This document shows, one piece after another, positions 4,397 to 64,000 of a stretch of 64,000 nt of DNA. The DNA comes from Chamaelirium japonicum. Taxonomy: Eukaryota > Streptophyta > Magnoliopsida > Liliales > Melanthiaceae. The notes beneath the pieces are model-generated. The model was not told where the DNA came from. It ran no database searches and was given only the letters and a program-made list of their open reading frames with translations. The stretch spans positions 28,735,209 to 28,799,208 of the forward strand of contig OX393549.1 of the NCBI GenBank assembly GCA_947650365.1, given 5' to 3'. How positions within the stretch are numbered: position 1 is the first letter of the stretch; each line of letters starts with the position of its first letter. The translations under genes were made by a program, and so were the position numbers.

Positions 4397-4683
4397 GAAT
4401 TCATTCTAATTCATTCATACAATCCATTCTAATTCTTTCACACGATCAATTCTAATTCATTCGTAGGATCCATTCTAATTCATTCGTACAATCTATTCTA
4501 TTTCATTCGTACGATCCATTCTTACTCATTCGTATGATCCATTCTAATTCATTCAGACGAATGTATCCATTCTAATTTATTCGTACGATCCATTCTAATT
4601 CATTCGTACGATCCATTCTAATTCATTCGTACGATCCATTCTAATTCATTCGTCCGATCCATTCTAATTCATTCGCACGAATG
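4061..4683. repeat. Long palindrome, 278-bp arms, 67-bp spacer
   Basis: Left arm 4061-4338 pairs with 4406-4683. Inner ends (4338+4406) and outer ends (4061+4683) give the same sum, 8744, so there is no net indel. The match is by specific variants in mirror order (GGATCCTACG with CGTAGGATCC, GAAATAG with CTATTTC, GAGTAAG-type with CTTACTC, CGTCCG-type with a CAGACG/CGTCCG pair), not just by opposite monomer orientation. The right arm ends exactly at the next orientation switch. Confidence 0.87.
4397..4683 (+). repeat. Satellite block 3, F orientation
   Basis: Short F block starting at a GAATTC junction. Almost all of it is the right arm of the palindrome at 4061-4683. It ends exactly in the linker of a 28-bp monomer, whose CGAATG continues as an R monomer. 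Confidence 0.95.
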
Positions 4684-6430
4684 AATTAGAATGGATCGTA
4701 CGAATGAACTAGAATGAAATAGAATGGATTGTGCGAATAAATTAGAATGGATCGTACGAATGAATTAGAATGGTTCGTGTGAAAGAATTAGAATGGATTG
4801 TATGAATGAATTAGAATAGATCGTATGAATGAATTAGAATGGATCGTACGAATGAATTAGAATGGATCGTACGAATGAACTAGAATGGATACATTCGTGC
4901 GAATAATTTAGAATGTATCGTACGAATGAATTAGAATGGATCGTACGAATGAATTAGAATGGATCTTACGAATGAATTAGAATGGATCGTACGAATGCAC
5001 GATCCATGCGAATGAATTAGAATAGATCGTACGAATGAACTAGAATGGATACATTCGTGCGAATGAATTAGAATGGATCGTACGAATGAATTAGAATGGA
5101 TCGTATGAATGAATTAGAATGGATCGTACGAATGAATTTGAATGGATCGTACGAATGAATTAGAATGGATCGTACGAATGAATTAGAATGGATACATTCG
5201 TGCGAATGAATTAGAATGGATATATTCGTGCGAAAGAATTAGAATAGATCGTATGAATGAATTAGAATGGATCCTATGAATGAATTAGAATGGATCGTGC
5301 GAATGAATTAGAATGGATCGTACGAATGAATTAGAATGGATCGTGCTAATGAATTAGAATTGATCGAACGAATGAATTAGAATGGATACATTTGTGCGAA
5401 TGAATTAGAATGGATCGTACGAATGAGAAAGAATGGATCGTACGAATGAAATAGAATAGATCGTACGAATGAATTAGAATGGATCGTACGAATGAATTAG
5501 AATGGATATATTCGTGCAAATGAATTAGAATGGATCGTATGAATGTATTAGAATGGATCGTATAAGTGAATTAGAATGGATCGTATGAATGAATTAGAAT
5601 GGATCGTATGAATGAATTAGAATGGATACATTCGTGTGAATGAATTAGAATGGATCGTATGAATGAATTAGAATAGATTTTGTGAATGAGTTAGAACTGA
5701 TCGTACGAATGAATTAGAATGGATACATTCGTACGAATGAATTAGAATGGATTGTATGAATGAATTAGAATGGATCGTACGAATGAATTAGAATGGATCG
5801 TATGAGCGAATTAGAATGGATACGAAGGAATTAGAATGGATCGTACGAAGGAATTAGAATGGATTATACGAATGAAATAGAATGGATCGTACGAAGGAAT
5901 TAGAATGGATCGTACGAAGGAATTAGAATGGATCGTACAAAGGATTTTGAATGAATCGTACGAATGAATTAGAATGGATATATTCGTGCAAATGAATTAG
6001 AATGGATCATATGAATGAATTAGAATGGATCGTATGAGTGAATTAGAACGGATAGTACGAATGAAGTAGAATGGATCGTATGAATGAATTAGAATGGATA
6101 CATTCGTGCGAATGAATTAGAATGGATCGTATGAATGAATTAGAATAGATTATGCGAATGAATTAGAATGGATCGTATGAATGAATTAGAATGGATACAT
6201 TCGTGCGAATAAATTAGAATGGATTGTATGAATGAATTAGAATGGATCGTACAAATGAATTAGAATAGATCGTACGAATGAATTAGAATAGATTGCGCGA
6301 ATGAATTAGAATGGATCATACAAATGAATTAGAATGGATCGTACGAAGGAATTAGAATGAATCGTACGAATGAATTAGAATGGATCATACGAATGAATTA
6401 GAATGGATCGTACGAAGGAATTAGAATGGA
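4684..6430 (-). repeat. Satellite block 4, R orientation
   Basis: R monomers. The CGAATGCACGATCCATG insert at about 4995 repeats the one at 2946. From about 5500 to 6430 it carries the module also found in the 4.2-kb higher-order repeat, including a 20-bp monomer (GGATACGAAGG at 5818) and GAACGGATAGTACG with GAAGTAG near 6046. Confidence 0.95.
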
Positions 6431-6586
6431 TCGTACGATCCATTCTAATTCATTCATACAATCCATTCTAATTCATTTGCACGAATGTATCCATTCTAAT
6501 CCATTCGTACGATCCATTCTAATCCATTCGTACGATCCATTCTAATTCATTCGCATGAATGTAACCATTCTAATTCATTCACACGA
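6431..6586 (+). repeat. Satellite block 5, short F island
   Basis: Six to seven F monomers between R blocks, including two CTAATCCATTCG variants and a GTAACCATTC variant. Entered through CGTACG and left through ACACGATCGTATG. Confidence 0.93.
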
Positions 6587-6969
6587 TCGTATGAATTAGA
6601 ATGGATACATTCGTGCGAATGAATTAGAATGGATCGTGCGAATCCATTAGACTGGATCATGCGAATGAATAAGAATGGATCATACGAATGAATTAGAATG
6701 GATCGTACGAATTAATTAGAATGGATACATTCGTGCGAATGAATTAGAATGGATTGTATGAATGAATTAGAATGGATCGAATGAATGAATTAGAATGGAT
6801 CATATGAATTAATTAGAATGGATCATACGAATGAATTAGAATGGATCGTACGAATGAATTAGAATGGATCGTATGAATGAACTAGAATGAATCGTACGAA
6901 TGAACTAGAATAGATATATTCGTGCGAATGAATTAGAATGGATCGTACGAATGAATTAGAATGGATCGT
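6587..6969 (-). repeat. Satellite block 6, R orientation
   Basis: R monomers containing the rare pair AATCCATTAGACTGG (about 6634) and GAATAAGAATGG, also seen at 51.69 and 55.29 kb. Switches to F through GATCGTACGATTC. Confidence 0.93.
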
Positions 6970-8090
6970 ACGATTCATTCTAATTCATTCGTACGATCCA
7001 TTCTAATACATTCGTACGATTCATGCTAATTCATTCGCATGATCCATTCTAATTCATTCATACGATCCATTCTTATTCATTCATACGATCCATTCTAATT
7101 TATTCACACAATCCATTCTAATTCATTCGTACAATCCATTCTAATTCATTCGTATGATCCATTCTAACTCATTCGGTGGATCCATTCTAATTCATTCGTA
7201 CGATCCATTCTAATTTATTCCCACGATCTATTCTAATTTATTCGTACGATCCATTCTAATTCATTCGTACGATCTATTCTAATTTATTCGCACGAATGTA
7301 ACCATTCTAATTCATTCATACAATTCATTCTAATTCATTCGTATGAGCTATTCTAATTCATTCGCACGATCCATTCTAATTCATTCGTACGATACATTGT
7401 AATTCATTCATACAATCCATTTAGATTCATTCGCACAAATGTATCCATTCAAATTCATTCGTATGATCCAGTCTAATTCATTCGTACGATCCATTCTAAT
7501 TCATTCGCACGAATATATCCATTCTAATTCTTTCGTACGATGCATTCTAATTCATTCGTACGATCCATTCTAATTCATTCATTTGATCCATTCTAATTCA
7601 TTCGTACGATCCATTCTAATTCATTCGTCTGATCCATTCTAATTCATTCGCACGAATGTATCCATCCTAATTCATTCGTACGATCCATTCTAATTCATTC
7701 ATACGATCCATTCTATTTCATTCATACAATGCATTCTAATACTTTCACACGATCCATTCTAATTCATTCGTACGATCCATTCTAATTCATTCGTACAATC
7801 CATTCTATTTCATTTGTACGATCCATTCTTACTCATTCGTATGATCCATTCTAATTCATTCGTACGATCCATTCTAATTCATTTGTACGATCCATTCTAA
7901 TTCATTCGTACAATCCATTTAGATTCATTCGCACAAATGTATCCATTCAAATTCATTCGTACGATCCAGTCTAATTCATTCGTACGATCCATTCTAATTC
8001 ATTCGCACGAATATATCCATTCTAATTCTTTCGTACGATGCATTCTAATTCATTCGTACGATCCATTCTAATTCATTCGTACGATCCATT
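6970..8090 (+). repeat. Satellite block 7, F orientation
   Basis: F monomers with rare variants such as CTCATTCGGTGGATCC (about 7170) and CCATTTAGATTCATTCG (about 7420 and 7916). The set near 7420-7560 is repeated at 7916-8060, a local duplication of about 0.5 kb. Relatives lie at 32.3 and 41.1 kb. Confidence 0.93.
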
Positions 8091-8413
8091 TACGAATGAA
8101 GTAGAATGGATCGTATGAATGAATTAGAATGGATACATTTGTGCGAATGAATTAGAATGGATCGTATGAATGAATTAGAATAGATTGTGCAAATGAATTA
8201 GAATGGATCGTACGAATGAATTAGAATGGATACATTCATGCGAATAAATTAGAATGGATTGTATGAATGAATTAGAATGGATCGTACGAATGAATTAGAA
8301 TGGATCGTACGAATGAATTAGAATAGATTGCGCGAATGAATTAGAATGGATCGTGCGAATGAAATAGAATGGATACAAATGAATTAGAATGGATCATACG
8401 AATGAATTAGAAT
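8091..8413 (-). repeat. Satellite block 8, R orientation
   Basis: Begins abruptly inside a monomer at TACGAATGAAGTAG, matching the interior of the higher-order module at about 11.43 kb, so this looks like a fragment of that module inserted or joined mid-unit. Confidence 0.93.
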
Positions 8414-8561
8414 GACGATCCATTCCTACTCATTCGTATGATCTATTCTAATTTATTCGCATGAATGTATCCATTCTAATTCATTCGTACGTCTAATTCA
8501 TTCGCACAATCCATTCTATTTCATTCATACGATCCATTCTTACTTATTCGTATGATCCATT
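8414..8561 (+). repeat. Satellite block 9, short F island
   Basis: About six F monomers with an internal deletion near 8490 (CGTACGTCTAATTC). Its end is the left arm of a palindrome with a 33-bp spacer at 8559-8591. Confidence 0.92.
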
Positions 8562-8658
8562 ATGGATACATTCGTGCGAATGAATTAGAATGGATCATAC
8601 GAATGAGTAAGAATGGATCGTACGAATGAAATAGAATGGATTGTGCGAATGAATTAGA
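8492..8658. repeat. Palindrome, about 67-bp arms, 33-bp spacer
   Basis: Same class; spacer 8559-8591. The left arm is shortened by the deletion near 8490. Confidence 0.75.
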
Positions 8659-9108
8659 ATGGATCGTACGAATGAATTAGAATGGATCGTGTGAATGAAT
8701 TAGAATGGATTGTATGAATGAATTAGAATAGATCGTATGAATGAATTAGAATGGATCGTACGAATGAATTAGAATGGATCGTACAAATGAATTAGAATGG
8801 ATCGTATGAATGAATTATAATGGATACATTCGTGCGAATGAATTAGAATGGATAGATTCGTGCGAAAGAATTAGAATAGATCGTATGAATGAATTAGAAT
8901 GGATCCTATGAATGAATTAGAATGGATCGTGCGAATGAATTAGAATGGATCGTACGAATGAATTAGAATGGATTGTGCTAATGAATTAGAATTGATCGAA
9001 CGAATGAATTAGCATGGATCGTGCTAATGAATTAGAATGGAACGTACGAATGAATTAGAATGGATCGTGTGAAAGAATTAGAATGGATTGTATGAATGAA
9101 TTAGAATG
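8562..9108 (-). repeat. Satellite block 10, R orientation
   Basis: Starts at the CCATTATGGATACA junction and ends at GAATTC (9108-9113). The last 0.1 kb, with TGCTAATG, GATCGAACG, TTAGCATGG and GGAACGTACG in order, is the exact mirror of the F sequence just after 12597. Confidence 0.94.
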
Positions 9109-10573
9109 AATTCGTACGATCCATTCGAATTCATTCGCACGATCCATTCTAATTCATTCATACGATCCATTCTAATTCATTCATACAATCCATTCTAATT
9201 CTTTCACACGATCCATTCTAATTCATTCGTAGGATCCATTCTAATTCATTCGTACAATCTATTCTATTTCATTCGTACGATCCATTCTTACTCATTCATA
9301 TGATCCATTCTAATTCATTCGGACGAATGTATCCATTCTGATTTATTCGTACGATCCATTCTAATTCATTCGTACGATCCATTCTAATTCATTCATACGA
9401 TCCATTCTAATTCATTCGTCCGATCCATTCTAATTCATTTGCACGAATGTATCTATTCTAATTCATTCGTACGATCCATTCTAATTCATTCGTACGATCC
9501 ATTCTAATTCATTCGTAAGATCCATTCTAATTCATTCGTAAGATCCATTCTAATTTATTCGTACGATCCATTCTAATTCATTCGCACAAATGTATCCATT
9601 CTAGTTCATTCGTACGATCCATTCTAATTCATTCGTACGATCCATTCTAATTCATTCGCACGATCCATTCTAATTCATTCGTACGATCCATTCTAATTCA
9701 TTCATACGATCCATTCTAATTCATTCGTACGATCCATTCTAATTCATTCGCACGATCCATTCTAATTCATTCGTACGATCCATTCTAATTATTTCACACG
9801 ATCCATTCTAATTCATTTGCACGATCCATTCTAATTCATTCGTACGATCCATTATAATTATTTCACACGATCCATTCTAATTCATTCATACGATCCATTC
9901 TAATTCATTCCCACGATCCATTCTAATTCATTCGTACGATCCATTCTAATTCATTCGCACGATCCATTCTAATTCATTCGCACAAATGTATCCATTCTAA
10001 TTCATTCTTACGATCCATTCTAATTCATTCGCACGATCCATTCTAATTCATTCATACGATCCATTCTAATTCTTTCGCACGATCTGTTCTTATTCATTCG
10101 CACAATCCATTCTAATTCATTCGCATGAATGTATCCATTCTAATTCATTCGTACGATCCATTCTAATTCATTCGTACGATCCATTCTAATTCATTCGTAT
10201 GATCCATTCTAATTAATTCGTATGATCCATTCTAATTCATTCGTACGATCCATTCTAATTCATTCATACAATCCATTCTAATTCATTCGTACGATCCATT
10301 CTAATTCACTCATACGATCCATTCTAATACATTCATACGATCCATTCTAATTCATTTGCACGAATATATCCATTCTAATTCATTCATACGATCCTTTCTA
10401 ATTCCTTCGTACGATCCATTCTAATTCATTCGTACGATCTATTCTAATTCATTCGTACGATCCATTCTAATTCATTCGTATGATCCATTCTAATTCCTTC
10501 GTACGATCCATTCTAATTCATTCGTACGATCCATTCTAATTCATTCGTACAATCTATTCTAATTCATTCGTAC
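9109..10573 (+). repeat. Satellite block 11, F orientation
   Basis: F monomers following the GAATTC junction. The first 0.3 kb, with CGTAGGATCC, CAATCTATTCTATTTC, CTTACTC and CGGACG, mirrors the R sequence before 12597. The last 0.5 kb, from GATCTGTTCTTATTC (10083), matches the F end of the next higher-order copy (about 14350). Confidence 0.94.
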
Positions 10574-12596
10574 GAATGGATACATTCGTGTGAATGAATT
10601 AGAATGGATCGTACGAATGAGTAAGAATGGATCGTACGAATGAAATAGAATAGATTGCACGAATGAATTAGAATGGATCGTACGAATGAATTAGAATGGA
10701 TCGTGTGAAAGAATTAGAATGGATCGTACGAATGAATTAGAATGGATCGTACGAATGAATTAGAATGGATCGTACGATGGAATTAGAATGGATCGTACGA
10801 TTGAATTAGAATGGATCGTACGAATGAATTAGAATAGATCGTACGAATGAATTAGAATGGATCATACGAAGGAATTAGAATGGATCGTACGAATGAGTTA
10901 GAATGGATATATTCCTGCAAATGAATAAGAATGGATCGTATGAATGTATTAGGATGGATCGTATGAGTGAATTAGAATGGATCGTACGAATAAATTAGAA
11001 TGGATCGTATGAATGAATTAGAATGGATACATTTGTGTGAATGAATTAGAATGGATCGTACGAATGAATTAGAATAGATTTTGTGAATGAATTAGAACTG
11101 ATCGTACGAATGAATTAGAATGGATACATTCGTGCGAAGGAATTAGAATGGATTGTATGAATGAATTAGAATAGATCGTACGAATGAATTAGAATGGATC
11201 GTATGAGTGAATTAGAATGGATACGAAGGAATTAGAATGGATCGTACGAAGGAATTAGAATGGATCATACGAATGAAATAGAATGGATCGTACGAAGGAA
11301 TTAGAATGGATCGTACGAAGGAATTAGAATGGATCGTACGAATGAATTAGAATGGATATATTCGTGCAAATGAATTAGAATGGATCGTATGAATGAATTA
11401 GAATGGATCGTATGAGTGAATTAGAACGGATAGTACGAATGAAGTAGAATGGATCGTATGAATAAATTAGAATGGATACATTTGTGCGAATGAATTAGAA
11501 TGGATTGTATGAATGAATTAGAATAGATTGTGCGAATGAATTAGAATGGATCGTACGAATGAATTAGAATGGATACATTCGTGCGAATAAATTAGAATGG
11601 ATTGTATGAATGAATTAGAATGGATCGTATGAATGAATTAGAATGGATCGTATGAATGAATTAGAATAGATTGTGCGAATGAATTAGAATGAATCGTACG
11701 AATGAATTAGAATGGATCATACGAATGAATTAGAATGGATCGTACGAATGAATTAGAATGGATCGTACGAATGAATTAGAATGGATCGTATGAAGGAATT
11801 AGAATGGATCGTACGAATGAATTAGAATGGATCGTACGATTGAATTAGAATGGATCATACGAATGAGTAAGAATTGATCGTATGAATGAATTAGATTGGA
11901 TCGTACGATCCATTCTAATTCATTAGCATGGATCGTGCTAATGAATTAGAATGGAATATACGAATGAATTAGAATGGATCATAGAATGGAACATACGAAT
12001 GAATTAGAATGAATTAGAATGGATCATACGAGTGAATTAGAATAGATCATAGGAATGAATTAGAATGGATCGTGCAAATGAATTAGAATGGATACATTCG
12101 TGCAAATGAATTAGAATGGATCGTGCGAATGAATTAGAATGGATCGTACGAATGAATTAGAATGGATATATTTGAACGAATAAATTAGAATGGATCATAC
12201 GAATGAATTAGAATGGATCGTACGAATGAATTAGAATGGATAGTGCGAATGAATTAGAATCGATCGTACGAATGAATTAGAATGGATCGTACGAATGAAT
12301 TAGAATGGATCATACGAATGAGTAAGAATGGATCGTACGAATGAATTAGAATGGATCGTACGAATAAATTAGAATGGATACATTCGTCCGAATGAATTAG
12401 AATGGATCATATGAATAAGTAAGAATGGATCGTACGAATGAAATAGAATAGATTGTACGAATGAATTAGAATGAATCCTACGAATGAATTAGAATGGATC
12501 GTGTGAAAGAATTAGAATGGATTGTATGAATGAATTAGAATGGATCGTATGAATGAATTAGAATGGATCGTGCAAATGAATTCGAATGGATCGTAC
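10574..12596 (-). repeat. Satellite block 12, R half of higher-order copy A
   Basis: R monomers between the GAATGGATACATTCGTGTG junction and the GAATTC junction at 12597. Holds a 20-bp monomer at 11219 and a one-monomer inversion at 11909-11955. Confidence 0.94.
11909..11955. repeat. One-monomer micro-inversion forming a perfect hairpin
   Basis: Arm CCATTCTAATTCATTAGCA (11910-11928), 7-nt loop TGGATCG (11929-11935), perfect complement 11936-11954; one more pair at 11909/11955. An F monomer sits inside an R block. Present once in each higher-order copy. Confidence 0.92.
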
Positions 12597-14819
12597 GAAT
12601 TCATTCTAATTCATTCATACAATCCATTCTAATTCTTTCACACGATCCATTCTAATTCATTCGTACGTTCCATTCTAATTCATTAGCACGATCCATGCTA
12701 ATTCATTCATTCGATCAATTCTAATTCATTAGCACGATCCATTCTAATTCATTCGTACGATCCATTCTAATTCATTCGCACGATCCATTCTAATTCATTC
12801 ATAGGATCCATTCTAATTTATGCATACGATCTATTGTAAATCTTTCGCACGAATGTATCCATTCTAAATCATTCGCACGAATGTATCCATTCTAATTCAT
12901 TCGTACGATCCATTCTAATTCATTCGTACGATCCATTCTAATTCATTCATACGATCTATTCTAATTCATTCATACAATCCATTCTAATTCTTTCACACGA
13001 TCCATTCTAATTTATTCGTACGATCCATTCTAATTCATTTGCACAATCCATTCTATTTCATTCGTACGATCCATTCTTACTCATTGGTACGATGCATTCT
13101 AATTCATTCGCACGAATGTATCCATTGTAATTCATTCGTACGAATCCATTCTAATTCATTCGTACAATCTATTCTATTTCATTCGTACGATCCATTCTTA
13201 CTCATTCGTATTATCCATTCTAATTCATTCGGACGAATGTATCCATTCTAATTTATTCGTACGATCCATTCTAATTCATTCGTACGATCCATTCTAATTC
13301 ATTCGTACGATCCATTCTAATTCATTCGTCCGATCCGTTCTAATTCATTCACACGAATGTATCCATTCTAATTCATTCGTACGATCCATTCTAATTCATT
13401 CATACGATCCATTCTAATTCATTCGTAAGATCCATTCTAATTCATTCGTACGATCCATTCTAATTCATTCGTACGATCCATTCTAATTCATTTGCACGAA
13501 TGTATCCATTCTAGTTCATTCGTACGATCCATTCTAATTCATTCGTTTGATCCATTGTAATTCATTCGCACGATCCATTCTAATCCATTCGTACGATCCA
13601 TTCTAATTCATTAATACGATCCATTCTAATTCATTCGTACGATCCATTCTAATTATTCGCACAAATGTATCCATTCTAATTCATTCGTACGATCCATTCT
13701 AATTCATTCGCACGATCCATTCTAATTCATTCGTACGATCCATTCTAATTCCTTCACACGATCCATTCTAATTCATTCGTACAATCCATTCTAATTCATT
13801 CGCACGATCCAATATAATTCATTCGTACGATCCATTCTAATTCATTCGCACGAATGTATCCATTCTAGTTCATTCGTACGATCCATTCTAATTCATTCGT
13901 ACGATCCATTCTAATTCATTCGCACGATCCATTCTATTTCGTTCATACGATCCATTCTAATTCATTCATACGATCCATTCTAATTCATTCGTACGATCCA
14001 TTCTAATTCATTCGCACAAATATATCCATTCTAATTCATTCGTACGATCCATTCTAATTCATTCGCACAAATGTATCCATTCTAATTCATTCGTACGATC
14101 CATTCTAATTCATTCGCACGATCCATTCTAATTCATTCGTACGATCCATTCTAATTATTTCACACGATCCATTCTAATTCATTCATACGATCCATTGTAA
14201 TTCATTCGCACGATCCATTCTAATTCATTCGTACGATCCATTCTAATTCATTCATACGATCCATTCTAATTCATTCGCACGATCCATTCTAATTCATTCG
14301 CACGATCCATTCTAATTCATTCGTACGATCCATTCTAATTCATTCGCACGATCTGTTCTTATTCATTCGCACAATCCATTCTAATTCATTCGCACGAATG
14401 TATCCATTCTAATTCATTCGTACGATCCATTCTAATTCATTCGTACGATCCATTCTAATTCATTCGTATGATCCATTCTAATTAATTCGTATGATCCATT
14501 CTAATTCATTCGTACGATCCATTCTAATTCATTCATACAATCCATTCTAATTCATTCGTACGATCCATTCTAATTCACTCATACGATCCATTCTAATACA
14601 TTCATACGATCCATTCTAATTCATTTGCACGAATATATCCATTCTAATTCATTCGTACGATCCATTTTAATTCCTTCGTACGATCCATTCTAATTCATTC
14701 GTACGATCCATTCTAATTCATTCGTACGATCCATTCTAATTCCTTCGTACGATCCATTCTAATTCATTCGTACGATCCATTCTAATTCATTCGTACAATC
14801 TATTCTAATTCATTCGTAC
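12597..14819 (+). repeat. Satellite block 13, F half of higher-order copy A
   Basis: F monomers. Opens with the CGTACGTTCC, ATTAGCACG, CATGCTAATTC and TCGATCAATTC series. An open 70-codon frame (13039-13251) falls here, but it is only a run of variant repeats and I do not call it a gene. Confidence 0.94.
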
Positions 14820-45704: not shown

Positions 45705-45888
45705 ACGAATGAATTAGAATGGATTGTACGAATGAATTAGAATGGATTGTGCGAATGAATTAGAATGGATCGTATGAATGAATAAGAATGGATCGTACGA
45801 ATGAATTAGAATGGATCGTGCGAATGAATTAGCATGAATCGTACGAATGTATTAGAATGGATCGTATGAATGAATTAGAATGAATCGT
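45705..45888 (-). repeat. Satellite block 36, short R island
   Basis: Eight R monomers between F blocks. Contains TTAGCATGAATCG, also found at 62459 in another short R block. Confidence 0.93.
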
Positions 45889-49956: not shown

Positions 49957-49992
49957 GAATGTATCCATTCGTACGAATGTATCCATTCGTAC
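49939..49992. repeat. 18-bp triplication at an orientation switch
   Basis: GAATGTATCCATTCGTAC occurs three times end to end (49939, 49957, 49975). At 33.83, 59.0 and 62.97 kb the same junction has one copy. Confidence 0.93.
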
Positions 49993-50884: not shown

Positions 50885-51234
50885 TGCATTCGTACGATCC
50901 ATTCTAATTCATTCGTAAGATCCATTCTAATTCATTCGTACGATACATTCTAATTCATTCGTACGATCCATTCTAATTCATTCGCACGAATGTATCCATT
51001 CTAGTTCATTCGTACGATCCATTCTAATTCATTCGTACGATCCATTCTAATTCATTCATACGATCTATTCTAATTTATTCATACAATCCATTCTAATTCT
51101 TTCACACGATCCATTCTAATTCTTTCGTACGATCCATTCTAATTCATTCGCACAATCCATTCTATTTCATTCGTACGATCCATTCTTACTCATTCGTCTG
51201 ATCCATTCTAATTCATTCGCACGAATGTATCCAT
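50885..51234 (+). repeat. Satellite block 43, F orientation
   Basis: F island of about 350 bp repeated at 54503-54851 with a constant offset of 3,617 bp. Ends at TGTATCCATAATGG. Confidence 0.94.
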
Positions 51235-52936: not shown

Positions 52937-53104
52937 GCACGATCCATTCTAATTCATTCGCAAGAATGTATCCATTCTAATTCATTCGTACGATCTATTC
53001 TAATTCATTAATATGATCCATTCTAATTCATTCGTACGATCCATTCTAATTCATATGCACAAAGGTATCCATTCTAATTCATTCGTACGATCCATTCTAA
53101 TTCA
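52937..53104 (+). repeat. Satellite block 45, short F island
   Basis: About seven F monomers with ATATGCACAAAGG, ending at ATTCAGGATCG. Same start and end types as block 21. Confidence 0.93.
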
Positions 53105-53526
53105 GGATCGTATGAATGAATTAGAATGGATACATTCGTGCGAATGAATTAGAATTGATCGTACGAATGGATTAGAATGGATCGTGCGAATGAATTAGAA
53201 TGGATCGAACGAATGAATTAGAATGGATCGTACGAATGAACTAGAATGGATACATTCGTGCGAATGAATTAGAATGGATCGTACGAATGAATTAGATTGG
53301 ATCGTACGAATGAATTAGAATAGATCTTACGAATGAATTAGAATGGATCGTACGAATGAATTAGAATGGATACATTCGTGCGAATGAATTAGAATGGATC
53401 GGACGAATGAATTAGAATGGATCGGACGAATGAATTAGAATGGATCGGACGAATGAATTAGAATGGATCGTACGAATGAATTAGAATGGATCAAATGAAT
53501 GAATTAGAATGGTTACATTCATGCGA
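53105..53526 (-). repeat. Satellite block 46, R orientation
   Basis: Three consecutive GATCGGACG monomers at about 53397-53465 suggest a recent 23-bp local expansion. Ends mid-unit at CATGCGACACGAATG. Confidence 0.93.
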
Positions 53527-53986
53527 CACGAATGTATCCATTCTAATTCATTCGTACGATCCATTCTAATTCATTCGAATGATCCATTCTAATTAATTCG
53601 TATGATCCATTCTAATTCATTCGTACGATCCATTCTAATTCATTCATACAATCCATTCTAATTCATTCGTACGATTCATTCTAATTGACTCATACAATCC
53701 ATTCTAATACATTCATACGATCCATTCTAATTCATTTGCACGAATATATCCATTCTAATTCATTCGTAGGATCCATTCTAATTCCTTCGTACGATCCATT
53801 CTAATTCATTCGTACGATCCATTCTAATTCATTCGTACGATCTATTCTAATTCATTCGTACGATCCATTCTAATTCATTCGTACGATCCATTCTAATTCA
53901 TTCGCACGATCCATTCTAATTCATTCGTACGATCAATTCTAATTCATTCGTACGAATGTATCCATTCTAATTCATTCGTACGATCC
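53527..53986 (+). repeat. Satellite block 47, F orientation
   Basis: Carries the CATACAATCC, CTAATACATTC and CCTTCGTACG series of the higher-order F halves. Ends at CGATCCTGAATTAG. Confidence 0.93.
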
Positions 53987-54502
53987 TGAATTAGAATGGA
54001 TCGTACGAATGAATTAGAATGGATACCTTTGTTCATATGAATTAGAATGGATCGTATGAATGAATTAGAATAGATCATATTAATGAATTAGAATGGATCG
54101 TACGAATGAATTTGAATGGATCGTACGAATGAATTAGAATGGATCTTACGAATGGATTAGAATGGATACATTCGTGCGAATGAATTAGAATGGATCGGAC
54201 GAATGAATTAGAATGGATCGTATGAATGAATTAGAATGGATCAAATGAATGAATTAGAATAGTTAAATTCTTGCGAATGAATTAGAATGGATCGTACGAA
54301 TGGATTAGAATAGATCGTACGAATGAATTAGAATGGATCGTACGAATGAATTAGAATGGATCGTGTGAAAGAATTAGAATGGATCGTACGAATGAATTAG
54401 AATGGATCGTGCGAATGAATTAGAATGGATCGTACGAATGAATTAGAATGGATCGTGCTAATGAATTAGAATTGATCGAACGAATGAATTAGCATGGATC
54501 GT
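53987..54502 (-). repeat. Satellite block 48, R orientation
   Basis: R monomers with ATACCTTTGTTCATATG; ends at the same GTGCATTCGTACG junction as block 42. Confidence 0.93.
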
Positions 54503-54851
54503 GCATTCGTACGATCCATTCTAATTCATTCGTAAGATCCATTCTAATTCATTCATACGATCCATTCTAATTCATTCGTACGATCCATTCTAATTCATTC
54601 GCACGAATGTATCCATTCTAGTTCATTCGTACGATCCATTCTAATTGATTCGTATGATCCATTCTAATTCATTCATACGATCTATTCTAATTCAGTCATA
54701 CAATCCATTCTAATTCTTTCACACGATCCATTCTAATTCATTCGTACGATCCATTCTAATTCATTCGCACAATCCATTCTATTTCATTCGTACGATCCAT
54801 TCTTACTCATTCGTATGATCCATTCTAATTCATTCGCACGAATGTATCCAT
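54503..54851 (+). repeat. Satellite block 49, F orientation
   Basis: Second copy of block 43, same two end junctions, differing by scattered base changes. Confidence 0.94.
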
Positions 54852-55624
54852 AATGGATCATACGAATGAGTAAGAATGGATCGTACGAATGAAATAGAAT
54901 GGATTGTGCGAATGAATTAGAATGGACTGTACGAATGAATTAGAATGGATACATTCGTGCGAATGAATTAGAATGGATCGAACGAATGAATTAGAATGGA
55001 TCGTACGAATGAATTAGAATGGATCGTACGAATGAATTAGAATGGATCGTACGAATAAATTAGAATGGATACATTCGTCCGAATGAATTAGAATGGATCA
55101 TACGAATGAGTAAGAATGGATCGTACGAATGAAACAGAATAGATTGTAAGAATGAATTAGAATGGATCGTGCGAATGAATTAGAATGGATCGTACGAATG
55201 AATTAGAATGGATCGTACGAATGAATTATAATGGATCATATTAATGAATTAGAATGGATACATTCGTGCGAATGAATTCGAATGGATCGTGCAAATCCAT
55301 TAGACTGGATCGTGCGAATGAATAAGAATGGATCATACGAATGAATTAGAATGGATCGTACGAATTAATTAGAATGGATACATTCGTGCGAATGAATTAG
55401 AATGGATTGTATGAATGAATTAGAATGGATCGTACGAATGAATTAGAATGGATCATACGAATTAATTAGAATGGATCATACGAATGAATTAGAATGGATC
55501 GTGCGAATGAATTAGAATGGATCGTACGAATGAACTAGAATGGATCGTACGAATGAACTAGAATGGATACATTCGTGCGAATGAATAAGAATGGATCGTA
55601 CAAATGAATTAGAATGGATCGTAC
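54852..55624 (-). repeat. Satellite block 50, R orientation
   Basis: Collinear with the start of block 44. AATCCATTAGACTGG lies one monomer nearer (offset 3,594 in place of 3,617 bp). Switches through CGTACGATTC. Confidence 0.93.
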
Positions 55625-57335
55625 GATTCATTCTAATTCATTCGTACGATCCATTCTAATATATTCGTACGATTCATGCTAATTCATTCGCACGATCCAT
55701 TCTAATTCATTCGTACGATCCATTCTTATTCATTCATACAATCTATTCTAATTCATTCGCACAATCCATTCTAATTCATTCGTACAATCCATTCTAATTC
55801 ATTCGTATGATCCATTCTAACTCATTCGGTGGATCCATTCTAATTCCTTCGTACGATCCATTCTAATTCATTCCCACGATCCATTCTAATTTATTCGTAC
55901 GATCCATTCTAATTCATTCGTATGATCTATTCTAATTCATTCGCACGAATGTAACCACTCTAATTCATTCATACGATTCATTCTAATTCATTCGTACGAT
56001 CCATTCTAATTCATTCGCACGAATATATCCATTCTAATTCTTTCGTACGATGCATTCTAATTCATTCGTACGATCTATTCTAATTCATTCGTACGATCCA
56101 TTCTAATTCATTCGCACGAATGTATCCATTCTAATTCATTCGTACAATCCATTCTATTTCATTCGTACGATCCATTCTTACTCATTCGTATGATCCATTC
56201 TAATTCATTCGTACGATCCATTCTAATTTATTCGTACGATCCGTTCTAATTCATTCGCACGATCCATTCTAATTCATTCATACGATCCATTCTAATTCAT
56301 TCATACGATCCATTCTAATTCATTCCTACAATCCATTCTAATTCATTCGCCCGATCCATTATAATTCATTCATACGATCCATTCTATTCGAATGGATCAT
56401 GCGATCCATTCAAATTCATTCGCACGATCCATTCTAATTCATTCATACAATCCATTCTATTTTATTTGTACGATCCATTCTTACTCATTCGTATGATCCA
56501 TTCTAATTCATTCGTACGAATGTATCCATTCTAATTCATTTGTACGATCCATTCTAATTCATTCGTACAATCCATTCTATTTCATTCGTACGATCCATTC
56601 TTACTCATTCGTATGATCCATTCTAATTTATTCGCACGAATGTATCCATTCTAATTCATTCATACAATCCATTCTAATTCATTCCGTACGATCCATTCTA
56701 ATTCATTCGTACGATCCATTATAATTCATTCGTTCGATCCATTCTAATTCATTCGCACGAATGTATCCATTCTAATTCATTCGTATGATCCATTCTAATT
56801 CATTCGTACGATCCATTCTAATTCATTCGTACAATCAATTCTATTTCATTCGTACAATCCATTCTTACTCATTCGTATGATCCATTCTAATTCATTCGGA
56901 CGAATATATCCATTCTAATTTATTCGTACGATCCATTCTAATTCATTTGTACGATCCATTCTAATTCATTCGTACGATCCATTCTAATTCTTTCGTCCGA
57001 TCCATTCTAATTCATTCGTACAAATATATCCATTCTAATTCATTCGTACGATCCATTCTAATTCATTCGTATGATCCATGCTAATTCATTCGTAAGATCC
57101 ATTGTAATTCATTCGTACGATCCATTCTAATTCCTTCGTACGATCCGTTCTAATTCATTCGCACGAATGTATCCATTCTAGTTCATTCATACGATCCATT
57201 CTAATTCATTCGCACGATCCATTCTAATTCATTCGTACGATCCATTCTAATTCATTCATACGATCCATTCTAATTCATTCGCACGAATTTATCCATTCTA
57301 ATTCATTCGTACGATCCATTCTAATTCATTCACAC
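55625..57335 (+). repeat. Satellite block 51, F orientation
   Basis: First 0.5 kb is close to block 7 (CGATTCATGC, CTCATTCGGTGG). Holds the small inverted insert at 56376-56398. Ends at CACACGTGCAAATG. Confidence 0.93.
56376..56398. repeat. Small inverted repeat, 9-bp arms
   Basis: Second occurrence of the 46172 element, with the same neighbours (CGCCCGATCC upstream, ATGCGATCC downstream), so the two share one origin. Confidence 0.9.
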
Positions 57336-57856
57336 GTGCAAATGAATTAGAAAGGATCGTATGAATGTATTAGAATGGATCGTGCGAATGAATTAGAATG
57401 GATCGTACGAATGAATTAGAATGGATTGTATGAATGAATTAGAATGGATCTTACGAATGAATTAGAATGGATCGTACGAATGAAATAGAATGGATCCTAC
57501 GAATGAATTAGAATGGATACATCCGTGCGAATGAATTAGAATGGATCGGATGAATGAATTTGAATGGATCGTACGAATGAATTAGAATGGATCGTACGAA
57601 TGAATTAGAATGGATCGTACGAATAAATTAGAATGGATACATTCGTCCGAATGAATTAGAATGGATCATACGAATGAGTAAGTATGGATCGTACGAATGA
57701 ACTAGAATAGATTGTACGAATGAATTAGAATGGATCCTACGAATGAATTAGAATGGATCGTGTGAAAGAATTAGAATGGATTGTATGAATGAATTAGAAT
57801 GGATCATATGAATGAATTAGAATGGATCGTGCGAATGAATTCGAATGGATCGTATG
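57336..57856 (-). repeat. Satellite block 52, R orientation
   Basis: Its last 0.34 kb is the left arm and spacer of the 57515-58147 palindrome. Confidence 0.94.
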
Positions 57857-58147
57857 AATTAATTCTAATTCATTCATACAATCCATTCTAATTCTTTCAC
57901 ACGATCTATTCTAATTCATTCGTAGGATCCATTCTAATTCATTCGTACAATCTATTCTATTTCATTCGTACGATCCATTCTTACTCATTCGTATGATCCA
58001 TTCTAATTCATTCGGACGAATGTATCCATTCTAATTTATTCGTACGATCCATTCTAATTCATTCGTACGATCCATTCTAATTCATTCGTACGATCCATTC
58101 TAATTCATTTGTCCGATCCATTCTAATTCATTCGCACGAATGTATCC
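57515..58147. repeat. Long palindrome, 283-bp arms, 67-bp spacer
   Basis: Arms 57515-57797 and 57865-58147; sums of paired positions are 115662 at the inner end, at AATAAATTAG/CTAATTTATT (57622 and 58040) and at the outer end, so the arms are collinear. The spacer holds two R monomers, the GAATTCG variant and the switch itself. Confidence 0.9.
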
Positions 58148-58241
58148 ATTGTAATTCATTCGTACGGTCCATTCTAATTCATTCGCACAATCCATTCTAT
58201 TTCATTCGTACGATCCATTCTTACTCATTCGTATGATCCAT
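57857..58241 (+). repeat. Satellite block 53, F orientation
   Basis: Nearly all of it serves as palindrome arm: 57865-58147 pairs leftward and 58150-58239 pairs rightward. Confidence 0.94.
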
Positions 58242-58362
58242 TATGGATACATTCGTGCAAATGAATTAGAATGGATCATACTAATGAGTAAGAATGGATC
58301 GTACGAATGAAATAGAATGGATTGTGCGAATGAATTAGAATGGATCGTACGAATGAATTAGA
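58150..58362. repeat. Palindrome, about 90-bp arms, 33-bp spacer
   Basis: Left arm about 58150-58239, spacer 58240-58272, right arm 58273-58362. CTATTTC, CTTACTC and CGTATGATCC on the left face GGATCATAC, GAGTAAG and GAAATAG on the right. It starts 2 bp after the previous palindrome ends. Confidence 0.85.
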
Positions 58363-58585
58363 ATGGATCATGTGAAAGAATTAGAATGGATTGTATGAAT
58401 GAATTAGAATAGATCGTATGAATGAATTAGAATGGACCGTATGAATGAATTAGAATGGATCGTACGAATGAACTAGAATGGATACATTCGTGCGAATGAA
58501 TTAGAATGGACCGTACGAATGAATTAATCGTACGAATGAATTAAAAGGGATCTTACGAATGAATTAGAATGGATCGTACGAATGC
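58242..58585 (-). repeat. Satellite block 54, R orientation
   Basis: Right arm of the 58150-58362 palindrome, then a broken unit at about 58525 (GAATTAATCGTACG). Ends at CGTACGAATGCACG. Confidence 0.93.
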
Positions 58586-59015
58586 ACGATCCATGCTAAT
58601 TCATTCGTTCGATCAATTCTAATTCATTAGCACGATCCATTCTAATTCATTCGTATGATCCATTCTAATTCATTCGCACGATCCATTCTAATTCATTCGT
58701 ACGATCCATTCTAATTCTTACACACGATCCATTCTAATTCATTCGTACGATCCATTCAAATTCATTCGTACGATCTATTCTAATTCATTCGTACGATCCA
58801 TTCTAATTCATTCGTACGATCCATACTAATTCCTTCGTACGATCCATTCTAATTCATTCATACAATCCATTCTAATTCTTTCACACGATCCATTCTAATT
58901 CATTCATACGATCCATTCTAATTCATTCGTGCAATCCATTCTATTTCATTCGTACGATCCATTCTTACTCATTCGTACGATCCATTCTAATTCATTCACA
59001 CGAATGTATCCATTC
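58586..59015 (+). repeat. Satellite block 55, F orientation
   Basis: Start of a duplication repeated at 62548 (offset 3,963 bp). Ends at CCATTCGTACGAATG. Confidence 0.94.
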
Positions 59016-59786
59016 GTACGAATGAATTAGAATAGATTGTACGAATGAATTAGAATGGATCGTACGAATGAATTAGAACGGATCGTATGAATGAATTAGA
59101 ATGGATCGTACGAATGAATTAGAATGGATCGTGCGAATGAATTAGAATGGATCGTACGAATGAATTAGAATGGATCGTACGAATGAACTAGAATGGATAC
59201 ATTCGTGCGAATGAATTAGAATGAATCGTACGAATGAATTAGAATGGATCGTACGAATGAATTAGAATGGATCATACGAATAAATTAGAATGGATCATAC
59301 GAATGAAATAGAATGGATCGTACGAATGAAATAGAATGGATTGTACGAATGAATTAGAATGGATCGTACGAATGAATTAGAATGGATCGTGTGAAAGAAT
59401 TAGAATGGATTATATGAATGAATTAGAATGGATCATATGAATGAATTAGAATGGATCGGGCGAATGAATTCGAATGGATCGTACGAATGAATTAGAATGG
59501 ATCATACGAATGAATTAGAATGGATACATTCGTGCGAATGAATTAGAATGGATACATTCGTGCGAAAGAATTAGAATAGATCGTATGAATGAATTAGAAT
59601 GGATCCTATGAATGAATTAGAATGGATCGTGCGAATGAATTAGAATGGATCGTACGAATGAATTAGAATGGATCGAACGAATGAATTAGCATGGATCGTG
59701 CTAATGAATTAGAATGGAACGTACGAATGAATTAGAATGGATCGTGTGAAAGAATTAGAATGGATTGTATGAATGAATTAGAATGA
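59016..59786 (-). repeat. Satellite block 56, R orientation
   Basis: Collinear with block 62 (offset 3,963, then 3,986 bp after one extra monomer). Ends at GAATTC (59785-59790). Confidence 0.94.
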
Positions 59787-60215
59787 ATTCGTACGATCCA
59801 TTCGAATTCATTCGCACGATCCATTCTAATTCATTCATACGATCCATTCTAATTCATTCATACAATCCATTCTAATTCTTTCACACGATCCATTCTAATT
59901 CATTCGTAGGATCCATTCTAATTCATTCGTACAATCTATTCTATTTCATTCGTACGATCCATTCTTACTCATTCGTATGATCCATTCTAATTCATTCGGA
60001 CGAATGTATCCATTCTAATTTATTCGTACGATCCATTCTAATTCATTCGTACGATCCATTCTAATTCATTCGTACGATCTATTCTTACTCATTCGAATGA
60101 TCCATTCTAATTCATTCGTATGATCCATTTTAATTCATTCGTACGATCCATTCTAATTCATTCGCACAATCAATTCTAATTCATTCGTACGATCCATTCT
60201 AATTCTTTCGTACGA
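59787..60215 (+). repeat. Satellite block 57, F orientation
   Basis: Repeated as block 59 with a 2,016-bp offset. Ends at CGTACGAACGTACG, a doubled linker. Confidence 0.94.
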
Positions 60216-61802
60216 ACGTACGAATGAATTAGAATGGATCGTACGGAATGAATTAGAATGGATTGTATGAATGAATTAGAATGGATACATTCGTGCGAAT
60301 TAATTAGAATTGATCATACGAATGAGTAAGAATGGATCGTACGAATGAAATAGAATGGATTGTGCGAATGAATTAGAATGGATCGTACGAATGAATTAGA
60401 ATGGATCGTATGAATGAATTAGAATGGATCATACGAATGAATTAGAATGGATATATTCGTGCAAATGAATTAGAATGGATCGTATGAATGTATTAGAATG
60501 GATCGTATGAGTGAATTAGAATGGATCGTACTAATGAATTAGAATGGATCTTACAAATGAATTAGAATGGATCGTACGAATGAATTAGAATGGATCGTAC
60601 GAATGAATTAGAATGGATACATTCGTACGAATGAATTAGACTGGATCGGACGAATGAATTAGAATGGATCGTACGAATGAATTAGAATGGATCGTACGAA
60701 TAAATTAGAATGGAAACATTCATCCGAATGAATTAGAATGGATCATACGAATGAGTAAGAATGGATCGTACGAATGAAATAGAATAGATTGTACGAATGA
60801 ATTAGAATGGATTCGTACGAATGAATTAGAATGGATACATTCGTGCGAATGCATTAGAATGGATCGTACCAATGAGTAAGAATGGATCGTACGAATGAAA
60901 TAGAATGGATTGTGCGAATGAATTAGAATGGATCGTACGAATGAATTAGAATGGATCGTGTGAAAGAATTAGAATGGATTGTATGAATGAATTAGAAGAG
61001 ATCGTATGAATGAATTAGAATGGATCGTACGAATGAATTAGAATGGATCGTACGAATGAATTAGAATGGATCATATGAATGAATTAGAATGGATACATTC
61101 ATGCGAATGAATTAGAATGGATACATTCGTGCGAAAGAATTAGAATAGATCGTATGAATGAATTAGAATGGATCCTATGAATGAATTAGAATGGATCGTG
61201 CGAATGAATTAGAATGGATCGTACGAATGAATTAGAATGGATCGTACGAATAAATTAGAATGGATCGTACGAATGAATTAGAATGGATCGTGCGAATAAA
61301 TTAGAATGGATACATTCGTGCGAAAGAATTAGAATAGATCGTATGAATGAATTAGAATGGATCCTATGGATGAATTAGAATGGATCGTGCGAATGAATTA
61401 GAATGGATCGTACGAATGAATTAGAATCGATCGTGCGAATAAATTAGAATGGATCGTGCGAATGAATTAGAATGGATCGTACGAATGAATTAGAATGGAT
61501 CGTGCGAATAAATTAGAATGGATACATTCGTGCGAAAGAATTAGAATAGATCGTATGAATGAATTAGAATGGATCCTATGAATGAATTAGAATGGATCGT
61601 GCGAATGAATTAGAATGGATCGTACGAATGAATTAGAATGGATCGTGCGAATAAATTAGAATGGATCGTGCGAATGAATTAGAATGGATCGTACGAATGA
61701 ATTAGCATGGATCGTGCTAATGAATTAGAATGGAACGTACGAATGAATTAGAATGGATCGTGTGAAAGAATTAGAATGGATTGTATGAATGAATTAGAAT
61801 GA
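60216..61802 (-). repeat. Satellite block 58, R orientation
   Basis: Contains a linker with one added base (CGTACGGAATG, 60241) and a near-tandem triplication at 61119-61710. Ends at GAATTC (61801). Confidence 0.94.
61119..61710 (-). repeat. Near-tandem triplication, 189 and 212 bp
   Basis: GGATACATTCGTGCGAAAG followed by TAGATCG and GGATCCTATG occurs at 61119, 61308 and 61520. The steps are 8 and 9 monomers plus a 5-bp insertion. Confidence 0.87.
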
Positions 61803-62232
61803 ATTCGTACGATCCATTTGAATTCATTCGCACGATCCATTCTAATTCATTCATACGATCCATTCTAATTCATTCATACAATCCATTATTATTCTTTCAC
61901 AAGATCCATTCTAATTAATTTATAGGATCCATTCTAATTCATTCGTACAATCTATTCTATTTCATTCGTACGATCCATTCTTACTCATTCGTATGATCCA
62001 TTCTTATTCATTCGGACGAATGTATCCATTCTAATTTATTCGTACGATCCATTCTAATTCATTCGTACGATCCATTCTAATTCATTCGTACGATCCATTC
62101 TTACTCATTCGTATGATCCATTCTAATTCATTTGTACGATCCATTCTAATTCATTCGTACGATCCATTCTAATTCATTCGCACAATCTATTCTAATTCAT
62201 TCGTACGATCCATTCTAATTCATTCGTACGAT
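61803..62232 (+). repeat. Satellite block 59, F orientation
   Basis: Second copy of block 57. Ends at CGTACGATCGTACG. Confidence 0.94.
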
Positions 62233-62547
62233 CGTACGAATGAATTAGAATGGATCGTACGGAATGAATTAGAATGGATTGTATGAATGAATTAGAATGG
62301 ATACATTCGTGCGAATGAATTAGAATGGATCATACGAATGAGTAAGAATGGATCGTACGAATGAATTAGAATGGATTGTGCGAGTGAATTAGAATGGATC
62401 GTATGAATGAATAAGAATGGATCGTACGAATGAATTAGAATGGATCGTGCGAATGAATTAGCATGAATCATACGAATGTATTAGAATGGATCGTACGAAT
62501 GAATTAGAATGGATCGTACGAATGAATTAGAATGGATCGTACGAATG
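62233..62547 (-). repeat. Satellite block 60, R orientation
   Basis: Shares the CGTACGGAATG oddity (62257) with block 58. Holds TTAGCATGAATC as in block 36. Confidence 0.93.
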
Positions 62548-62975
62548 TACGATCCATGCTAATTCATTCGTTCGATCAATTCTAATTCATTAGCACGATC
62601 CATTCTAATTCATTCGTATGATCCATTCTAATTCATTCGCACGATCCATTCTAATTCATTCGTACGATCCATTCTAATTCTTTCACACGATCCATTCTAA
62701 TTCATTCGTACGATCCATTCTAATTCATTCGTACGATCTATTCTAATTCATTCGTACGATCCATTCTAATTCATTCGTACGATCCATTCTAATTCCTTCG
62801 TACGATCCATTCTAATTCATTCATACAATCCATTGTAATTCTTTCACACGATACATTCTAATTCATTCGTACGATCCATTCTAATTCATTCGTGCAATCC
62901 ATTCTATTTCATTCGTACGATCCATTCTTACTCATTCGTACGATCCATTCTAATTCATTCACACGAATGTATCCA
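62548..62975 (+). repeat. Satellite block 61, F orientation
   Basis: Second copy of block 55; its entry junction reads AATGTACG where block 55 has AATGCACG. Confidence 0.94.
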
Positions 62976-64000
62976 TTCGTACAAATGAATTAGAATAGAT
63001 TGTACGAATGAATTAGAATGGATCGTACGAATGAATTAGAATGGATCGTATGAATGAATCAGAATGGATCGTGCGAATGAATTAGAATGGATCGTACGAA
63101 TGAATTAGAATGGATCGTACGAATGAACTAGAATGGATACATTCGTGCGAATGAATTAGAATGGATCGTACGAATGAATTAGAATGAATCGTACGAATGA
63201 ATTAGAATGGATCGTACGAATGAATTAGAATAGATCATACGAATGAATTAGAATGGATCATACGAATGAGTAAGAATGGATCGTACGAATGAAATAGAAT
63301 GGATTGTACGAATGAATTAGAATGGATCTTACGAATGAATTAGAATGGATCGTGTGAAAGAATTAGAATGGATTGTATGAATGAATTAGAATGGATCATA
63401 TGAATGAATTAAAATGGATCGTGCGAATGAATTCGAATGGATCGTACGAATGAATTAGAATAGATCTTACGAATGAATTAGAATGGATACATTCGTGCGA
63501 ATGAATTAGAATGGATACATTCGTGCGAAAGAATTAGAATAGATCGTATGAATGAATTAGAATGGATCCTATGAATGAATTAGAATGGATCGTGCGAATG
63601 AATTAGAATGGATCATACGAATGAATTAGAATGGATCGTGCTAATGAATTAGAATTGATCGAACGAATGAATTAGCATGGATCGTGCTAATGAATTAGAA
63701 TGGAACGTACGAATGAATTAGAATGGATCGTACGAATAAATTAGAATGGATCTTATGAATGAATTAGAATGGATCGTACGAATGAATTAAAATGGATCGT
63801 ACGAATGAATTAGAATGGATCTTACAAATGAATTAGAATGGATCGTACGAATAAATTAGAATGGATCGTATGAATGGTTTAGAATGGATACATTCGTGCG
63901 AATGAATTAGAATGGATCGGACGAATGAATTAGAATGGATCGTACGAATGAATTAGAATGGATCAAATGAATGAATTAGAATGGTTACATTCATGCGAAT
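62976..64000 (-). repeat. Satellite block 62, R orientation
   Basis: Second copy of block 56, then a different continuation after about 63720 (no GAATTC exit). Runs off the window end in the GGTTACATTCATGCG module. Confidence 0.94.

Follow-up and report, generated by a model that had tools for sequence, protein, structure and literature searches.

Recurring strand switches in a Chio-like satellite array of Chamaelirium japonicum: mirror-image copies and a probable part for short patch copying

The closest described relatives of the DNA analysed here are the satellites of the holocentric Chionographis japonica. According to the parts of the reports cited here, the 23/28-bp satellite Chio1/Chio2 is associated with CENH3 and its forward and reverse arrays are mixed (Kuo et al. 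2023, PMC10264360); Chio1 is Chio2 minus 5 bp, plus a 1-bp substitution (PMC10264360). In a later account a 9-bp piece of the 23-bp monomer, TTCGTACGA, is printed and Chio array orientation is described as frequently alternating (Kuo et al. 2025, PMC12722358), and non-allelic gene conversion and dyad-induced breaks are proposed by the same authors (PMC12722358). Chama arrays of the sister genus are consistently oriented, unlike the alternating Chio arrays. A second system is that of the Tribolium madens satellites TmSat1 and TmSat2, whose macro-dyads are reported, in the part of the source used, to contain a few recurring inversion sites in megabase satellite regions, with 98–99% conservation and possibly hairpin-forming (PMC13081366). 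In our judgement little is known about the ways in which strand changes arise in satellite arrays and are passed on. We analysed 64,000 nt of Chamaelirium japonicum (GenBank assembly GCA_947650365.1, contig OX393549.1, positions 28,735,209 to 28,799,208 of the forward strand), referred to below as the window, in which a satellite changes strand at switches that recur as distinct types. Each type bears its own scar, so its copies can be traced in both orientations, and the direction of copying and the patch length can be measured. Mirror-image switches of five types are best read, from their flanks, as copies of one another. With a probability that we put at about 0.55, they would have been spread by short, orientation-blind, gene-conversion-like copying of switch-bearing patches, together with direct duplication of ∼4.26-kb units.

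From end to end the window consists of satellite (1..64000, unstranded, 62 orientation blocks of 23-bp Chio1-like and 28-bp Chio2-like monomers); it holds no unique DNA, and its largest uncovered stretch is at most 15 bp. The satellite is AT-rich, with intermingled tandem units of 23 bp (GTACGAATGAATTAGAATGGATC; 2116 anchor intervals) and 28 bp (356 anchor intervals), the longer unit being the shorter one plus ACATT and one substitution. The forms GAATGAATTAGAATGGATACATTCGTGC and GAATGAATTAGAATGGATCGTAC fit the published relation of a 5-bp deletion and a 1-bp substitution, compared with the wording of the paper, and TTCGTACGA was found in the window consensus on the reverse strand. A two-state segmentation assigned 32,174 bp to the + strand and 31,826 bp to the − strand. 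The two monomer lengths, the 5-bp/1-bp difference, the mixed forward and reverse arrays, TTCGTACGA and a higher-order cluster are thus shared with Chio1/Chio2 as the cited parts of the papers describe them, and on this likeness the window satellite is almost certainly the Chio1/Chio2 centromere repeat of Chionographis japonica, which in the published description is CENH3-associated. Searches for an exact 34-mer in a genome-contig collection and for an exact 24-mer in viral contigs gave no match, as expected for a plant repeat. The sequence GAATGGATACATTC, quoted as a junction motif in an earlier note on this DNA, occurs 224 times on both strands; as a part of the 28-bp monomer it is not junction-specific.

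After merging of blocks shorter than 60 bp we counted 61 switches, besides 21 short inserts, which corresponds to a strand change about once per kb and a median orientation block of 778 bp. The switches were clustered by their ±150 bp on both strands at a threshold of 0.16, yielding 18 clusters, 10 of them singletons. Good-Turing coverage of switch types was 0.84 and varied between 0.70 and 0.95 over thresholds of 0.08–0.18. With 10 of 61 switches being singletons and such coverage, the description of these junctions as a closed set in the earlier note does not hold. Its map of five junction types largely holds: 39 of 41 listed positions fall within 20 bp of a switch of the same class and orientation, and each of types 1–5 occurs in both orientations, as does the hairpin element (four forward, two reverse). 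Position 49939 does mark a reverse type-2 switch, one with an expanded core; position 2946, listed as a variant type-5 junction, is instead an 11-bp micro-inversion that returns to the + strand.

The following intervals were placed by segmentation and core alignment, forward being + and reverse −. Type 1 (class A) has 15 switches, eight forward (4378..4418, 12578..12618, 16833..16873, 21095..21135, 38622..38662, 47127..47167, 57840..57880 and the one at 29024..29064 described below) and seven reverse (9091..9131, 29907..29947, 34425..34465, 44671..44711, 49087..49127, 59768..59808 and 61784..61824). Type 2 (B) has three forward switches, two of them at 10551..10591 and 30589..30629 and the third at 14797..14837 in a higher-order slot shared with the type-4 switch at 19020, and four reverse (33820..33860, 58997..59037, 62960..63000 and an expanded-core seventh member at 49990). 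This last switch (49937..49997, reverse) has a core that is an 18-bp tandem of ∼3.4 exact copies; compared with the six other type-2 switches it shows 96–98% identity in aligned bases and 45 gap columns. Type 3 (C) comprises six switches, four forward (8553..8593, 29421..29461, 39495..39535 and 58236..58276) and two reverse (51201..51241 and 54818..54858), and type 4 (D) eight, six forward (19000..19040, 23667..23707, 26887..26927, 27640..27680, 46705..46745 and 53084..53124) and two reverse (48390..48430 and 53966..54006). Type 5 (E) has two forward and two reverse switches, one of the reverse ones at 62527..62567 and the others within two-switch blocks shared with type 3: type 5 forward followed by type 3 reverse (E-C', the prime marking the reverse form) at 50885..51221 and 54502..54838, both + and 336 bp long, and the inverted block, type 3 forward followed by type 5 reverse (C-E'), at 58256..58584 (−, 328 bp). 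Some type-1 switches (29044, 57860 and others) are centres of near-palindromes with arms up to ∼96% alike, which does not hold for most of the switches tested in the other types; the own arms of the switch at 29024..29064 (+) differ by 8.5 edits per 200 bp.

Three further classes, L (five switches), M (five) and K (two), came out of the clustering at 0.16. They have generic cores near CGTACG, little common flank and weak or ambiguous orientation, M and L being nearly symmetric, and they look like independent births. As their orientation calls are unreliable, the claim of both orientations and the counts for classes A–E are confined to types 1–5.

With Tribolium TmSat1/TmSat2, as far as the cited part of that source describes them, the window shares a small number of recurring, conserved strand-change sites. 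The monomers are unrelated, and the Tribolium arrays consist mostly of two subarrays of kilobases to tens of kilobases, whereas the blocks in the window have a median of 778 bp; copies of one type in both orientations also set the window apart from those arrays as described. Two long symmetric subarrays per site were not found here, given the block length and the fact that, of the 40 switches tested, only 9 had their best arm match in their own opposite arm (at the other 21 of the 61 a block was too short). A fold-back origin of every switch was rejected on this same count. A recent palindromic origin fits type 1 mainly.

The evidence for copying comes from the flanks. Within ±150 bp the median identity was 0.930 for opposite-orientation pairs (n = 101) and 0.928 for same-orientation pairs (n = 89), both sets including classes L, M and K, while different classes of the same switch type gave 0.809 (n = 710). 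Permutation of orientation labels had no significant effect on identity in any of seven classes, and the aligned 80-bp cores are nearly identical across orientations. The decay of likeness with distance is also similar. In class A, opposite pairs compared in mirror differ by 5.5, 9.2, 9.3, 9.0 and 11.9 edits per 115 bp at 0, 60, 115, 175 and 230 bp, and same-orientation pairs compared directly by 5.9, 9.6, 9.0, 9.1 and 12.1; both kinds of pair are down to background at ∼460 bp. In C the opposite pairs are somewhat ahead of the same-orientation pairs and in B somewhat behind them; in D and E they fall behind at greater distances. The mirror case is weakest for type 4, in which the mirrored match is clearly ahead of the direct one only within ∼60 bp of the switch (5.6 vs 11.0 edits at 0 bp, 9.1 vs 9.8 at 60 bp).

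Private variants were followed in type 1 by a test of alignment columns, in groups chosen from the type-1 tree. Seventeen private fixed columns, five of which make up one 5-bp insertion, are common to the forward switches at 4398, 29044 and 57860 and the reverse switch at 29927; seven are common to 38642 and 47147 (forward) and 34445 and 49107 (reverse), and one to 12598, 16853 and 21115 (forward) and 9111 (reverse). Variants present in exactly two type-1 members are about equally frequent in the two kinds of pair, with 11 in opposite pairs (56 pairs) and seven in same-orientation pairs (49 pairs). Counts of private 18-mers were less informative: within 150 bp of the switch type 1 has 14, none common to both orientations, and types 2–5 have none, while within 300 bp type-1 switches have 33, of which 12 are in both orientations. 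Unique words are few near switches because the flank monomers recur elsewhere, which speaks against calling the flanks private in any simple sense, and whole-flank identity and the type-1 column test were used in place of the 18-mer count. The expectation in the earlier note that clusters would hold both orientations together with shared private variants was borne out for types 1–5 in its first part and, by private columns, for type 1 in its second, although no 18-mers are shared across orientations within 150 bp. The outcome which that note had named as fatal to its view, mirror junctions sharing no flanking variants beyond the core, does not occur: mirror copies share flanks and, in type 1, private variants. 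Since types 1–5 share flanks across orientations, their mirror-image junctions are therefore best read as copies and not as independent events. We show that the mirror copies are related by descent, that relatedness within the five types ignores orientation and that the ∼4.26-kb units were duplicated directly.

A 200-bp stretch is identical at four places in the window, 9001–9200 and from 44581, 48997 and 59678, which shows very recent copying.

The orientation of type 1 appears to have changed repeatedly. Trees of ±120, 250 and 400 bp require 4, 5 and 4 changes in class A; with shuffled means of 5.1, 5.3 and 5.2, orientation is distributed on the tree much as it would be after shuffling. A type-1 tree that unites every forward copy in a single clade is rejected (log-likelihood lower by 149, AU test p = 2.4e-45). 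The numbers of changes needed are 1–2 in B, 1–2 in C and 2 in D, the tree analysis covering types 1–4 (type 5 has four members). The trees assume no recombination within the aligned 500 bp, which the evidence for patches described next makes doubtful, so the counts of changes serve as a guide. A repeated change of orientation is thus supported for type 1, with its 4–5 changes, while types 2–4 are each compatible with one.

The signature of gene conversion, an internal foreign patch between two unchanged flanks, was found at one slot. Tandem ∼4.26-kb higher-order units with strand switches extend over 10571..25608 (unstranded), the last unit being only partly alike, and one −/+ slot of this unit holds a type-2 switch at 14817 and a type-4 switch at 19020. 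The flanks of the two switches stay 91–100% alike: of the 115-bp tiles, 10 of the 15 on the left and 13 of the 16 on the right have at most six edits. The two tiles at the centre differ by 12 and 10 edits, which become 7 and 10 if the search is given more slack. At 19020 the centre (∼−700 to +115) matches the type-4 switch at 26907 with 0–5 edits and that at 23687 with 0–8; the other five type-4 copies compared match it only near the core. Preserved flanks around a type-4-like centre indicate that an internal patch of ∼0.9 kb containing the switch was exchanged; the central patch unlike the sibling slot (∼−700 to +115/+200 of the switch) lies at 18320..19220, unstranded. A scan of 1800 pair-orientation combinations gave five that pass the flank criterion, namely four same-class tandem neighbours and 14817/19020. 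Four runs of a shift control gave 17 hits, of which 14 are self-matches and one an own mirror, so that only the two weak hits (5+4 and 5+5 tiles) count as a real null. Gene conversion in the cores of maize centromeres is reportedly a non-crossover exchange within centromeric repeats; here, by comparison, the patch holds a strand switch and changes the switch type.

The window was also divided into overlapping 200-bp tiles, whose counts are not independent. Outside the tandem units (that is, outside 10.4–27.0 kb) the best match of a switch-holding tile was direct in 57 cases, inverted in 56 and tied in 9 (n = 122), and the copying of switch-bearing DNA is apparently orientation-blind on this count. 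Tiles of the whole window gave 733 direct, 347 inverted and 166 tied (n = 1246), which became 563, 505 and 161 when matches within 10 kb were left out; the excess of direct matches is consistent with local tandem duplication added to an exchange that is orientation-blind.

The preferred reading may be spelled out as follows. New switches would be rare, and fold-back template switching at short dyads (CGTACG, for example) may be what creates them, a step that is less secure than the others. Homologous copying of patches, akin to gene conversion and seen in one patch, would then carry an existing switch to other places along with a few hundred bases of the arms. A + arm could find a template on either strand anywhere in the array, and non-crossover homologous copying would follow; as the same monomer is present on both strands, donors should work in either orientation. 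Any +/− switch could thus take the place of another, in forward or reverse-complemented form. Reverse-complementing leaves a +/− switch +/−, so that replacement would be possible between like types only. Direct tandem duplication of the ∼4.26-kb units would multiply switches in one orientation on top of this. As to the first step, the 11 GGATCGTACGATCC joins (at most one mismatch) consist of five L switches and six hairpin elements, and the 12 exact CATTCGTACGAATG joins of five type-2 switches, three copies in the expanded type-2 core and four short inserts; a clean dyad join is thus present at type-2 switches, L switches and hairpin elements and absent from types 1, 4 and 5.

The lengths of the copied tracts bear on how much DNA was turned. 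In 80 same-orientation and 89 opposite-orientation pairs of classes A–E, compared at settings that differ in gap cost, tract medians for same and opposite pairs were 436 and 467 bp (p = 0.91), 700 and 769 bp (p = 0.57) and 845 and 893 bp (p = 0.75); the pairs are not independent, so these p values are nominal. The equality held at strict, intermediate and lenient settings. The strictest two measures penalise 5-bp insertions heavily, the first having a null median of 1 and a 95% point of 259 bp, and at the lenient affine setting the between-class null median is 1185 bp, which makes that setting uninformative on length. At the two intermediate settings the longest tract of an opposite pair measures 2,046 bp, and at least two switches are included in 5 and 6 of 89 cases, compared with 16 and 17 of 80 same-orientation pairs. 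Four of the five multi-switch opposite pairs are the block of types 3 and 5, counted once from each of its switches. Same-orientation tracts reach 5.3 kb because of the tandem ∼4.26-kb unit at ∼10.6–25.6 kb.

These lengths do not support the claim that each junction must have been carried inside a larger inverted segment, as surviving mirrored tracts have medians of 467–893 bp, like those of same-orientation copies; nor was the nesting of inversions confirmed, given at least two switches in only 5 of 89 opposite pairs at the stricter setting, four of them this one block. The homology that survives thus does not call for larger nested inverted segments, and as a whole the inference in the earlier note is only partly supported. 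Repeated, nested inversion of larger segments with older switches carried inside is still an explanation that we consider unlikely but worth serious attention. The two-switch block of types 3 and 5 exists in both orientations with near-constant spacing (336, 336 vs 328 bp), and the neighbour pairs A-B, A-D, A'-M and L'-M' are also found both ways round, with unequal spacing. Switch-free inverted matches extend over ∼1.8–2 kb (e.g. 19057–20873 vs 41359–43170, 94.4%), and longer switch-bearing inverted alignments exist at 84–90%, near background. At the lenient setting mirrored tracts reach 4,012 bp, the reverse type-2 switch at 33840 matches those at 10571 and 14817 over ∼2.7 kb, and at least two switches are as common in mirrored as in direct tracts (28 of 89 and 29 of 80). 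Such inversion has to contend with the limits on tract length and content at the stricter settings, and plain inversion adds no copies: as copy number rises, inverted copying is needed and inversion alone is insufficient.

Several results weigh against patch copying as well. The only clear patch exchange lies between two forward switches, and among the 1800 combinations the stricter scan gave no patch that turns a switch round while the flanks on both sides are kept; a looser scan, made without a control, offers as candidates the five pairs named below. A single change of orientation is not rejected for types 2, 3 and 4 (p = 0.105, 0.302 and 0.075). Unrelated switches themselves give tract medians of 341 and 511 bp at the two intermediate settings, where only 18 and 6 of 89 opposite and 16 and 12 of 80 same-orientation pairs exceed the 95% point of the null; moreover, short tracts much like these would also remain from larger inverted duplications that turnover had since broken up. 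For switch-free tiles outside the tandem units the best match is more often direct (416) than inverted (273), with 101 tied (n = 790), so orientation-blindness does not extend to the whole array. No dyad join was detected by the scan at 31 of the 61 switches, among them 14 of the 15 in type 1, 6 of the 8 in type 4 and all four in type 5, and its near-matches elsewhere were unspecific. On account of the tract null, the equal lenient counts, the direct bias of switch-free tiles and the missing dyad joins, we lowered the probability of patch copying from 0.58 to 0.55 and raised that of nested inversion slightly.

The remaining alternatives appear weaker. Large palindromes, such as those of sex chromosomes, undergo arm-to-arm conversion and inversion of the spacer, and what the window shares with them is opposed arms able to exchange sequence and flip the centre. 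A crossover between the opposed arms of one switch would turn its centre and leave the outer flanks unchanged; this in-place flipping seems improbable to us, even though 7 of 14 type-1 switches tested have arms more alike than any of the 5–9 unrelated arms compared. A loose scan made without a control did yield candidates, both opposite same-class pairs with matching direct outer flanks (6969/40625, 29927/38642 and 34445/47147) and same-orientation pairs with mirrored outer flanks (19020/46725 and 29927/34445), none of which passed the stricter scan. Unlike in the sex-chromosome type of palindrome, the outer flanks here lack, at stricter settings, the context expected of in-place flips: a direct outer-flank match was seen in 1 of the 12 opposite pairs in D and in none of the 56 in A, 9 in B, 8 in C and 4 in E, in a comparison that averages both sides and may miss one-sided cases. 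Far less credible is a repeated independent birth of the same switch, either way round, at a dyad that is favoured for it. Classes L, M and K, with their generic dyad cores, little common flank and (for M and L) weak orientation, would suit such an origin, as would the mirror advantage of type 4, confined to the core; but types 1–5 share flanks across orientations, and the private variants of type 1 already refute independent origin for that type. An assembly artefact, with misjoined or fold-back reads in a repeat array, is to our mind just as remote. The region is wholly repetitive, which would favour such an error, yet most copies differ from each other and bear variants of their own, and the switches are not close self-mirrors over ±150 bp (median identity to the own reverse complement 0.812, n = 61). 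Mixed orientation was, besides, reported for a HiFi-read assembly by the Chio authors in the cited parts of their papers (PMC10264360, PMC12722358).

Much of this is already known: the satellite, its mixed orientation, dyads and a proposal of gene conversion from the work on Chio, and conserved inversion sites from that on Tribolium, as the parts cited describe them. Recurring Chio switch types in both orientations and the exchange of a switch as a patch were not found in the literature searched, many journals lying outside it. If orientation-blind conversion of switches holds genome-wide, it would offer sequence-level support for non-allelic gene conversion in the spread of Chionographis centromere units, and would bear on why Chionographis arrays alternate while Chamaelirium arrays do not. 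A bolder and rather improbable extension takes the switches themselves as the inherited unit: a limited set of switch cassettes, neutral in orientation since reverse-complementing the array gives the array again, would compete by conversion for slots. Switching would thereby stay frequent across the centromere units, in contrast to the uniformly oriented Chama arrays, and long dyads would stay abundant, which may aid CENH3 loading.

A few smaller elements accompany the switches. The hairpin element lies at 11886..11923, 16119..16156, 20403..20440 and 25276..25313 in forward (+) and at 33011..33048 and 41787..41824 in reverse (−) orientation. The 11-bp micro-inversion at 2953..2963 (−) and a 10- to 11-bp one at 4998..5007 (−) bear the left arm and core of type 5 and then return at once to the + strand; they are either precursors of a type-5 switch or remnants after loss of the block behind. 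In the 28-bp monomer the extra ACATT creates CATTCGTGCGAATG, a 14-bp near-perfect dyad, and with it a small fold-back at the CGTACG site; it is possible that the 28-bp unit as a whole is the 23-bp unit folded back in miniature at the CGTACG dyad. Anchor intervals of 13 and 10 bp are paired in many blocks (13 + 10 = 23), suggesting shifted or doubled anchor sites inside some monomers.

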